From assembly GCA_014381415.1 (NCBI GenBank), contig JACNLQ010000041.1, positions 1 to 42,672 of the forward strand: DNA of 42,672 bases, in the 5' to 3' direction. Made by a program: the position numbers and the translations under genes. Numbering within the stretch: the stretch's first letter is position 1; every line of letters begins with the position of its first letter. Shown one piece after another: positions 318 through 3,009 of this stretch. Under the pieces are notes generated by a model. It was not told where the DNA came from, made no database searches, and was given only the letters and a program-made list of their open reading frames with translations. Source of the DNA: Fidelibacterota bacterium (GTDB lineage Bacteria > Fidelibacterota > Marinisomatia > SCGC-AAA003-L08 > D37C17).

Positions 318-340
318 AATCTCTCCTTATAAAAGGGGAG

Positions 341-426
341 TACCGAGACCCGGGCTCGAACCGGGATGGACATATATGTCCGAGGGATTTTAAGTCCCTT
401 GTGTCTACCAATTTCACCATCTCGGC
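341..426 (-). tRNA. tRNA-Leu (UAA)
   Basis: Read on the minus strand, acceptor GCCGAGA (426-420) pairs with TCTCGGT (348-342), with discriminator A at 341. The anticodon stem is GGGAC and the loop carries TAA. A variable arm built on GGACATATATGTCC is typical of a class II tRNA. The T-loop is TTCGAGC. CCA is not encoded. It is the last of three clustered tRNAs, in the order Gly-Cys-Leu also seen in the E. coli glyW-cysT-leuZ operon. Confidence 0.95.
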
Positions 427-479
427 AAAAATTTATTGAGCATGTTATATAAAAAGGGGATCATAAAGACCCCCTGTTG

Positions 480-551
480 AGGCGTCGACCAGATTCGAAC
501 TGGTGCATGACGGTTTTGCAGACCGCTCCCTTACCGCTTGGGTACGACGCC
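480..551 (-). tRNA. tRNA-Cys (GCA)
   Basis: Acceptor GGCGTCG (551-545) pairs with CGACGCC (487-481), with discriminator U (480) as usual for bacterial tRNA-Cys. The anticodon loop carries GCA and the T-loop is TTCGAAT. No CCA is encoded. It is the middle gene of the Gly-Cys-Leu cluster. Confidence 0.95.
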
Positions 552-553
552 TG

Positions 554-610
554 AAAAAGCCTCCAAACCCGGGCATTGAGCTTGTCGAAATGTCGAAGGG
601 TGGAGGCTTT
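554..610 (-). repeat. Terminator-like inverted repeat with a REP-like insert in its loop
   Basis: AAAGCCTCC (556-564) and GGAGGCTTT (602-610) form perfect 9-bp arms. On the minus strand the second arm runs into TTTTT, the form of an intrinsic terminator. The loop is unusually long (about 37 nt) and contains a CCCTTCGACA..TTCGACAAGCTCAATG-like segment resembling dispersed REP-type elements. It lies between tRNA-Gly and tRNA-Cys. Confidence 0.5.
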
Positions 611-614
611 GCTG

Positions 615-687
615 AGCGAAAGATCGGATTTGAACCGACGACCCTAACGTTGGCAACGTTATGCTCTACCAGCTGAGCTACTTTCGC
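615..687 (-). tRNA. tRNA-Gly (GCC)
   Basis: Acceptor GCGAAAG (687-681) pairs with CTTTCGC (622-616), with discriminator U615. The anticodon loop TTGCCAA gives GCC. D-arm and T-arm (TTCAAAT) are intact and no CCA is encoded. It is first in the minus-strand tRNA cluster. Confidence 0.95.
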
Positions 688-751: not shown

Positions 752-1930
752 TTAGTGATCTGGAATTCCATCTCCATTATGATCATGCCCAATATGTTTC
801 TGATTCTTACCAGGTGGTGTTCCAGATGGAGGTTGCGGTCCAAATGAATTGTCTATTTTAGCTTTACCATCATCCACTATCCGTAAAACGTCTGGGCGGT
901 CCGTAACCGTTTTACCCAATTCATGTTTACTCATTTTTATTGAGTTGACACTGTTTTTCAAGGCAATTTTTGCAGATTGAATTTGAGATTCATAGGTTTC
1001 TATCTTTTTCAAACTTTGGGGGTCATCTTTATAAACATTTTGTAAATCTGTCACGAGATTACCCTGTCTCAATTTATTGAGTTTTTTCTCTGCCTGGGAA
1101 ACTTGATTTTCATACACAGCTATATCCGTGAAGCCTTGATTTGGATCTGCAATAGTAAGGTCAAACTGGTACAGGTATTTACCCCGGTCACCACAAGAAT
1201 ATGCAGGAATATCTCTTTTACCGCCATCTTGTGATCGTGTTTTAGATTTGCTTCGAATAACCAAATCAATAGGATAGCCAGAAGATTGTAATTTAGAAAT
1301 ATCAGCTTCTTCAGAATCAAACATGAGCACCAATACATCAGATTGGCTGTCAACCTCACCCACCAGATCATTCAGTGCTTCAATAGGATCCTGAATATAC
1401 ACATCAGAATGAATGAATTTAGATGCTAAACCAATAACACCAACAGACACACCCTCTACTTCTACAATTAGATAGGGGTCAAATAATCGATTGCCATTAA
1501 TGTCTTGAATGTTTGCGGATATAAATGGGAAGTTTGCTAGCATCTGCATTTCCTGGATAAATTCAAGACCTCCGGCAAAATCTTTTGAGCCGGGAGAGAA
1601 TGCATGGCAGCCAATTTCATTAAAAGCAGAAACTATAATTTCGGCAGTCATTTTGGCAATCTCAATTGGAGAACCAGGACCTAAAGTTTCCTTTTTAAAG
1701 AGAAGGTTTCCTGCATCTAAAATGAGTACATCAAATCCGTCCGATCTGAGATTGTCAATAATTGTAGCTTTCCGGGCAAGACCGCCCAGAGGTTTCTTTT
1801 TTCAGCCACAGGGGTCGGTTTCACCATGTACATTGGCAGTACCAACTATTCGTATCTGTTTGGAATCGGCAGTTTCTGCCAAACTGATCTGAAAAAGCAT
1901 CAGTAAAATCATCCAAAATAATTTCTTCAT
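752..1930 (-). CDS. UshA-like exported metallophosphoesterase-fold protein, probable selenoprotein (UGA = Sec43)
   Basis: The frame runs from ATG at 1930 to TAA at 752 (392 codons) with one in-frame TGA at 1804-1802. Residues 1-18 look like a signal peptide (MKKLFWMILLMLFQISLA). The motif around the TGA is TANVHGETDPCG-U-KKKPLGGLAR. In UshA-like proteins with a PCGC motif the second Cys sits exactly here, so TGA probably encodes selenocysteine. A hairpin with loop GGTCTT lies 12 nt past the TGA, as in bacterial SECIS elements. The start is set by a 4-nt ATGA overlap with the upstream rhodanese-MauE gene and an AAGGA ribosome site. Metal ligands of the calcineurin fold look weakened (NVH for DxH, DAGN for DAGD), so redox rather than phosphatase chemistry is possible. 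A coiled-coil-like middle and a tail HDHNGDGIPDH follow. A pseudogene is the alternative; an automated call would begin at the internal ATG at 1651. Confidence 0.8.
1772..1789 (-). promoter_or_regulatory. SECIS-like hairpin downstream of UGA
   Basis: On the minus strand CTGGGC (1789-1784) pairs with GCCCGG (1777-1772) around the loop GGTCTT (1783-1778). It starts 12 nt after the TGA. Bacterial SECIS elements such as that of E. coli fdhF have a short stem at this distance and an apical loop containing GGUC. The hairpin also encodes the conserved LGGLAR residues. Confidence 0.75.
1802..1804 (-). other. In-frame UGA, probable selenocysteine codon
   Basis: The TGA replaces the second Cys of a CGC motif at codon 43. 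The reading frame is open for 42 codons before it and 349 after it. The immediate context is CCCTGTGGC-TGA-AAAAAG. Confidence 0.78.
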
Positions 1931-3009
1931 TCGTGATCCTTATTTGATAATGTAATTTTGTTTTTCATTCTATAAATAAAAGCCATACCTAAAAGTAAAA
2001 TATCTTCTCCGATTCGTTTTATTAACTCCATTTTTAAATCTGTAACCCCAGCATCAGATTCGGTTTTAAAACAGCCACAATGTACATCAATTCCTCTAAT
2101 AACTGCTTGAGATAAAATAATGATAAAGAAGATGTAAAGACCAATTGTAAGGCTTGTACTACCCTCTAAAAATACCCCAAAAATCAGAAACACACCAAGT
2201 ATCAATTCCAGCCAGGGGAGAACGAGTCCTGCGATATTTTCCACAGTAGCTGGAGTTAAATGAAAATTATGAATATTTTCTGAGAATGAAACCGGATCCA
2301 GAATTTTATGGTAACTTGCAAAAATAAATACGAGTCCCAATATAATTCGGGGTAATACAGAAATATCTTTAACATTTAATCCAGTCAAGGGGAGTGAGAT
2401 AATTCCTTTAATTGATAGTAAGTGGATGGCAATGAAAATAGCTGAGAGCACTATTGTCCATGATATGATTTTGTCTATATCAAATTCAGTTTCTTTGGGA
2501 ACTGTTTTAACTATAGCTGAACTGTTGAGAGAAGAAGGCAGTTCTGCATCTCTCCACTGGGGCCAGCCGCCCTCAAAAATCAGCACTTTTTCAAAGGCCA
2601 GCTCATTAAAAAAATAATCGGCTAAATCCATACTGAGGGAACAATCCTCACCGCTGCAATAAATTACATGGGTAAATGTATCATCCATTTCATTGATAGC
2701 ATCTTCATAATCCTCATAATAATCAAATGGGATATTAACTGCATTTTCGATATGTCCAGAATTGTAATCCTCAGAGTCTCTAGCGTCAACAAAAACAGCC
2801 ATATTTTCATTAAAAAGGTGCTGGGCAAATTCTAAATTTATTGCCATTGGTGAGATCATATCTTCAGGTACAGAAAATGAGTTGATGGTCTCTAGAATTC
2901 GCTCTTTTTTAATAAGGGTGAATTCAGGATCATCCAGAATTGAAAAACGGATAAACCCCAGAACAATTGCCAGCGAAAAAATGAATATAATTTGTTTTTT
3001 ATGTGTCAC
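1927..3009 (-). CDS. Rhodanese-MauE/DoxX fusion membrane protein
   Basis: 360 aa. An N-terminal membrane anchor (about 5-23) is followed by a rhodanese domain (about 55-160) with DARDSEDYNSGHI and the active-site loop CSGEDCS (C118, second Cys C123). Four or more hydrophobic segments (about 183-345) then form a MauE/DoxX-like domain with a CGC pair (311-313) in the last loop. Rhodaneses move sulfane sulfur; MauE-type proteins act in membrane thiol-disulfide exchange. The gene overlaps the downstream Sec-containing protein by 4 nt (ATGA), so the two are translationally coupled and probably work together outside the cytoplasm: sulfur or reducing equivalents passed through Cys pairs to the CG-Sec site. 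The substrate is unknown. Confidence 0.8.
   Translation of the reverse strand: MTHKKQIIFIFSLAIVLGFIRFSILDDPEFTLIKKERILETINSFSVPEDMISPMAINLEFAQHLFNENMAVFVDARDSEDYNSGHIENAVNIPFDYYEDYEDAINEMDDTFTHVIYCSGEDCSLSMDLADYFFNELAFEKVLIFEGGWPQWRDAELPSSLNSSAIVKTVPKETEFDIDKIISWTIVLSAIFIAIHLLSIKGIISLPLTGLNVKDISVLPRIILGLVFIFASYHKILDPVSFSENIHNFHLTPATVENIAGLVLPWLELILGVFLIFGVFLEGSTSLTIGLYIFFIIILSQAVIRGIDVHCGCFKTESDAGVTDLKMELIKRIGEDILLLGMAFIYRMKNKITLSNKDHE

Follow-up and report, generated by a model that had tools for sequence, protein, structure and literature searches.

A UshA-like protein of uncultured Marinimicrobia that is almost certainly a selenoprotein, and its rhodanese-MauE neighbour

The window analysed here, a stretch of 42,672 nucleotides, corresponds to contig C84 in a MAG of 1.9 Mb whose nearest named relatives, at 75-92% identity, are Candidatus Neomarinimicrobiota/Marinimicrobia MAGs. 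Its minus strand carries an UshA-like gene whose frame (1930-752) contains a single internal in-frame TGA, at codon 43 (1804-1802). Does this TGA specify selenocysteine (Sec) and, if so, what might an UshA-like protein do with it? A sequence-only reading of the locus had proposed a probable selenoprotein, noting that one TGA splits an otherwise intact 392-codon frame at CG-U before KKKPLGGLAR, and that the start overlaps the upstream stop as ATGA. These elements are all present as described: the context of the TGA is PCG-U-KKKPLGGLAR (ETDPCG-U-KKKPLGGLARKATI when read through), and the ATG (1930-1928) shares ATGA with the stop TGA of the upstream gene (1929-1927). The features of the gene are as follows.

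752..1930, minus strand: gene of the putatively exported UshA-like selenoprotein, a frame of 392 codons followed by TAA, with UGA decoded as Sec (homologues have a single TGA at the corresponding position)
1802..1804, minus strand: UGA codon 43, Sec as the third residue of an invariant C-G-U (homologues; Cys in selA-less genomes)
1808..1810, minus strand: codon of Cys41, the putative partner of Sec43 (Cys41 does not vary among 29 aligned sequences)
1874..1930, minus strand: N-terminal signal peptide, about residues 1-19, plain type, predicted by eye from MKKLFWMILLMLFQISLAE
1771..1790, minus strand: bSECIS hairpin within the P-L-G-G-L-A-R codons, 8 bp with loop GUCU or, equivalently, 6 bp with loop GGUCUU (folding, covariation, frozen synonymous codons)

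In other lineages the N-terminus is of a different kind, 27 of 72 homologues displaying a lipobox-like motif.

Homologues were searched for in 245 genomes of the phylum, 203 of which gave a match at E <= 1e-10; some of these matches, a minority, are weak and may represent other UshA relatives. Among the matches listed, the same UGA is found in nearly all homologues, down to about 30% identity, and most of them have exactly one TGA, which in the loci read lies at the same C-G-U site. The spacing between the TGA and the GGL that follows is the same in 50/50 UGA homologues examined. Decay in other strains, which would have spoken against a selenoprotein, is not seen in the sister genomes, and the dN/dS ratio 3' of the UGA is 0.053-0.082 with respect to four congeners, the fifth being saturated in dS. 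Strong purifying selection acts 3' of the UGA.

The residue that takes the place of Sec in TGA-less homologues is a cysteine. C-G-C is found in family f13, the genomes of which are at most 1 Mb, in family f23 and in one f5 genome (G191), with close variants in G014 (CAC) and in one extra copy of G186 (CDC). It had been anticipated that homologues would have Cys in some genomes and UGA in others; both are seen, and Cys follows the absence of selA. Among the matches listed, selA is present in 114/125 UGA genomes (undetected in 11) and in 1/25 Cys genomes (undetected in 24), a difference with a Fisher p of 2e-18, these counts being drawn from the single best match of each listed genome, with no correction for relatedness. 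The 11 UGA genomes in which selA was undetected are all incomplete MAGs (55-91%). Midpoint rooting of a maximum-likelihood tree places the f13 Cys clade within UGA lineages, and the well-supported branches require a minimum of three changes between Sec and Cys.

Several individual loci deserve mention. G186 harbours three copies of the gene (L046, L079 and L080); UGA is present in two of them and Cys (PCDC) in the third. In the streamlined family f13 (L101-L103, at most 1 Mb), where selA was undetected, DCGC replaces PCGU. A distant relative, L074 (G200, family f26), has ESCPTCRR, that is C-x2-C, where the others have C-x-U/C.

Insertion of Sec relies on a dedicated machinery, and selA, selB, selD and tRNA-Sec had been named as the genes to look for. 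All four were found in the genome, and all score above their curated cut-offs: selA and selB adjoin each other, tRNA-Sec scores 66.7 bits and is called SeC with anticodon tca by ARAGORN, and selD carries an in-frame TGA of its own. SelD (L052, G000:C14:3138-4061) is thus probably a selenoprotein too.

The hairpin announced by the sequence-only reading, with a 6-bp stem and loop GGTCTT, does begin 12 nt 3' of the TGA (CTGGGC-GGTCTT-GCCCGG). When the 42 nt that follow the UGA, close to the 40 nt that had been suggested, are folded with RNAfold, the stem extends to 8 bp with loop GUCU, at -12.7 kcal/mol, and the apical loop lies 18-19 nt 3' of the UGA. Published bSECIS elements are defined by a loop of 3-9 nt, an upper stem of 4-16 bp, a G in the first two loop positions, a UGA-to-loop distance of 16-37 nt and an MFE at or below -7.5 kcal/mol (PMC13188914); with its 6-8 bp, 18-19 nt and -12.7 kcal/mol, the window hairpin falls within every one of these bounds. 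The 59 nt around it have a z of -2.9, 3/200 dinucleotide shuffles being as good, and a hairpin is found at the same place in nearly all of the 50 UGA homologues. Apart from the nearby tRNAs, an Rfam scan at the gene gave no convincing RNA family. Three tRNA genes (Leu, Cys and Gly) lie directly 3' of the selenoprotein gene (window 340-687, minus strand).

When hairpin energy was compared with that obtained by synonymous-codon randomisation, significance was reached in only 17/50 UGA genes taken singly, so the case for a SECIS rests on covariation and codon freezing. The loop codons GGC-GGT-CT occur in 48/50 UGA genes versus 1/22 Cys genes, and elsewhere in the same UGA genes GGC accounts for only 245/1322 Gly codons. 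Since Cys genes retain the peptide P-L-G-G-L-A-R without retaining the loop codons, selection on the SECIS is separable from protein constraint; the 48/50 versus 1/22 contrast shows the former at work inside a conserved coding motif. As to covariation, in 25 LAR-type sequences the paired columns 13/30 occur as CG, UA, AU and GC, and columns 15/28 as GC and UA, giving 14 two-sided changes versus 3.6 ± 1.5 after shuffling (0/500 shuffles as high). In 13 LSR/LPR-type sequences, the 3' arm has moved by one base and C18 still closes the GGUCU loop; the column pair 15/27 occurs as GC, CG and AU, with 5 two-sided cells (0/500 shuffles).

These data bear on two other readings of the UGA. An open frame through a TGA cannot by itself tell genome-wide reassignment, for instance to Trp, from local recoding; yet TGA serves as the stop of the directly upstream gene, homologues have Cys and never Trp at the UGA site, and tRNA-Sec, selA, selB and a SECIS hairpin are present, which leaves reassignment with next to no probability. 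The same goes for a genuine stop or a sequencing error in a decaying pseudogene re-started downstream, where a 299-codon ORF does begin at 1651: conservation of the UGA in nearly all listed homologues at such distances, the dN/dS values 3' of it, the compensatory changes in the hairpin and the exchange of UGA with Cys only all speak against it. Pseudogene, reassigned UGA and sequencing error were accordingly rejected on the conservation of the UGA, the upstream TGA stop and the Cys-only exchange. Taken as a whole, the comparative evidence makes it almost certain that the window gene encodes a selenoprotein, as the sequence-only reading had held to be probable; sel genes, Cys/UGA exchange, SECIS folding and undecayed sisters all went its way. 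The hairpin 12 nt after UGA-43 would recruit SelB and Sec-tRNA-Sec, and Sec would go in as the third residue of the C-G-U of the exported protein.

Is this a new kind of selenoprotein? The sequence-only reading knew with certainty of no described selenoprotein of this type, and in this it was mistaken. A group labelled 'COG0737, UshA-like, CxU', with 76 marine sequences, was among the twenty major selenoprotein families of the 2008 GOS ocean survey, which set it apart as being without a known Cys-based redox motif (PMC2398784), and recent reviews list NF041198 and a second UshA-like family. The best family of the window protein is NCBIfam NF041198 (UshA_like_PCGU, UshA-like (seleno)protein; E 6e-61), which is also matched by all 29 aligned relatives. 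The score, 206.6 bits (197.3 in a six-frame search), is below the curated cut-off of 275, and the match spans profile positions 4-380 of 519, positions 381-519 being unmatched. The window protein has the PCG-U/C then GGL.R segment of NF041198 and, in agreement with the broad COG0737 CxU definition, an UshA-homologous N-terminal domain with C-x-U. It shares PCG-U, this N-terminal domain, Sec/Cys exchange and a marine origin with the known group (PMC2398784) but its C-terminal part is missing or unrelated with respect to NF041198 (381-519). Judged from these matches, the window protein is a short, divergent relative of NF041198 and of the known CxU UshA-like kind. NF049981 (UshA_like_Sel_2), also an UshA-like (seleno)protein family, is matched weakly (E 1e-8), and its motif is CxxU (PMC13188914) instead of CxU.

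A profile search of solved structures returned YfkN, UshA, CD73-type 5'-nucleotidases and SoxB, for the N-terminal domain only. E. coli UshA 5'-nucleotidase and SoxB thus have a homologous N-terminal metallophosphoesterase domain, but the window protein differs from them by its eroded metal ligands, an added C-G-U loop and an unmatched C-terminal domain; the SoxB model scores 33.4 bits, far below its curated cut-off of 550. In the 29-sequence alignment, the D-x-H motif of UshA has become N-x-H or worse, with Asp in 1/29 and His in 12/29, the Asp being replaced mostly by Asn and otherwise by Ser. The Asp of the GD motif (position 75) is Asp in 14/29 and Asn in half, and the N-H of GNHE is absent nearly throughout, so that the UshA dimetal ligand set (D-x-H, GD, GNHE) is not intact in the aligned sequences and the partial loss of metal ligands noticed in the first reading is confirmed. 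Asp72 and Asp117 are largely conserved; given these and the half-Asp position 75, the protein may still bind some metal. By contrast with the ligands that are lost, C41, G42, C/U43, G49, G50 and R53 are invariant. An AlphaFold2 model built from a shallow six-sequence alignment is poor (mean pLDDT 37.8), so that C-G-U can be placed near the former metal site from the sequence alignment only.

A clue to function comes from the overlapping upstream gene.

1927..3009, minus strand: fusion of a rhodanese domain (residues 61-154) and a MauE/DoxX-type membrane domain (217-343) (domain profiles; conserved adjacency)
2641..2658, minus strand: rhodanese active loop C118-x4-C123 (YCSGEDC), kept in 36/38 neighbouring rhodaneses
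2071..2079, minus strand: C-G-C motif of the MauE domain, residues 311-313 (simple pattern search)

A CGC-F/Y motif was found by simple pattern search in 19/26 neighbouring MauE matches. In 88/90 class-level genomes, the UshA-like gene has a rhodanese/MauE gene, or its split halves, as a same-strand neighbour, upstream in 25 and downstream in 63, the count covering class genomes with both places listed, as taken from two tables, one place per genome. In the genus of the window the two domains are fused. The neighbour was undetected in families f5 (same order), f13 and f23 (Cys families) and in several outside the class; some families thus have the UshA-like gene without it, and the partnership is not obligatory. 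In the f13 loci, an M3 peptidase gene lies beside the DCGC gene, and a PepSY-TM-like gene replaces rhodanese-MauE in 2/3 loci read.

Two known systems resemble this pair. TsoB, a rhodanese/DsbD fusion-like selenoprotein (NF045694), combines a membrane domain with a rhodanese whose two chalcogen residues are four apart; its motif is UxxxxU (PMC13188914), of which the C-x4-C of the neighbour is the Cys counterpart. TsoB has a DsbD-like membrane part and Sec where the neighbour has MauE and Cys, and the neighbour matches the TsoB model weakly (40.4 bits versus a cut-off of 805). Mycobacterium tuberculosis has an oxidoreductase complex composed of a DoxX protein, SodA and a sulfurtransferase (PMC6930017). 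This DoxX-SseA-SodA complex likewise associates a DoxX-type membrane protein with a sulfurtransferase/thiol-oxidoreductase, with SodA where the window locus has the selenoprotein; the likeness is one of analogy only.

An attractive explanation for the whole, which I regard as rather more probable than improbable, is insertion of Sec together with an envelope thiol or sulfane-sulfur relay involving rhodanese-MauE. Its functional part, namely that the UshA-like protein is no longer a phosphoesterase, that C-G-U is its active site and that it works in a relay with rhodanese and MauE, is given even chances on the strength of the sequences. The C-G-U loop would occupy the place of the loop that follows the first metal-binding strand in UshA, and would serve as an active site in which Cys41 and Sec43 form a redox pair, either cycling between selenol/thiol and selenenylsulfide or carrying a persulfide. 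The two-cysteine rhodanese would take up or pass on sulfane sulfur or oxidising equivalents, and the MauE-type protein, with its C-G-C, would provide the connection with the redox pool of the membrane. The UshA-like protein itself, whether soluble or anchored by a lipid, would act as selenol reductant or carrier. Lineages in which the Sec machinery was lost would use Cys at the position of Sec. That selenium serves periplasmic redox chemistry, as first suggested, is reasonable and is helped by the gene neighbourhood; the chemistry itself I infer.

The protein might instead still be a hydrolase whose metal site, a modified form of that of UshA/SoxB, uses Sec and Cys as metal ligand or nucleophile, for instance in a SoxB-like cleavage of thiol-bound sulfonate. 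The clear UshA and SoxB homology in sequence profiles and the retention of Asp72, Asp117 and half of the GD Asp are in its favour, and a rhodanese neighbour is compatible with thiosulfate chemistry. It is nonetheless unlikely, for GNHE has lost its N-H and the first motif its Asp nearly throughout, and the first-motif His survives in only 12/29. Even less likely is a site for soft metals or metalloids (Hg, Cu, As, selenite) in an operon devoted to detoxification or metal trafficking: C-x-U/C motifs are able to bind soft metals, but no metal-resistance gene was recognised among the neighbours scanned, and Sec usually serves redox catalysis.

With regard to the envelope relay, I tentatively propose, at slightly less than even chances, that the Sec UshA-like protein, the C-x4-C rhodanese and the C-G-C MauE constitute a hitherto undescribed redox module of the envelope, in which a nucleotidase fold has been turned into a selenol or persulfide carrier, and which would be widespread in uncultured Marinimicrobia, Sec giving way to Cys in streamlined lineages without Sec machinery. 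In the literature searched, no link of MauE, rhodanese and selenoprotein was found, an earlier notice in other selenoprotein-family papers being possible; nor were ligand erosion with an invariant C-G-U or the SECIS/selA contrast, for which an earlier report is also possible. The constant rhodanese/MauE pairing gives a first hint of a redox role involving sulfur or thiols, and the neighbours, the eroded metal site with its invariant C-G-U and the Sec-to-Cys swap provide testable handles on function.

The remainder of the protein sits where UshA has its C-terminal domain.

910..1123, minus strand: mainly helical C-terminal part, probably a coiled coil, spanning about residues 270-340 (weak Pfam helical matches; low-confidence model)

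Pfam gave weak matches to helical families only on the window protein. The extreme C-terminus, HDHNGDGIPDH (window 755-790, minus strand), is rich in His and Asp, and relatives end in HHGHNH or similar; this is perhaps a metal-binding tail.
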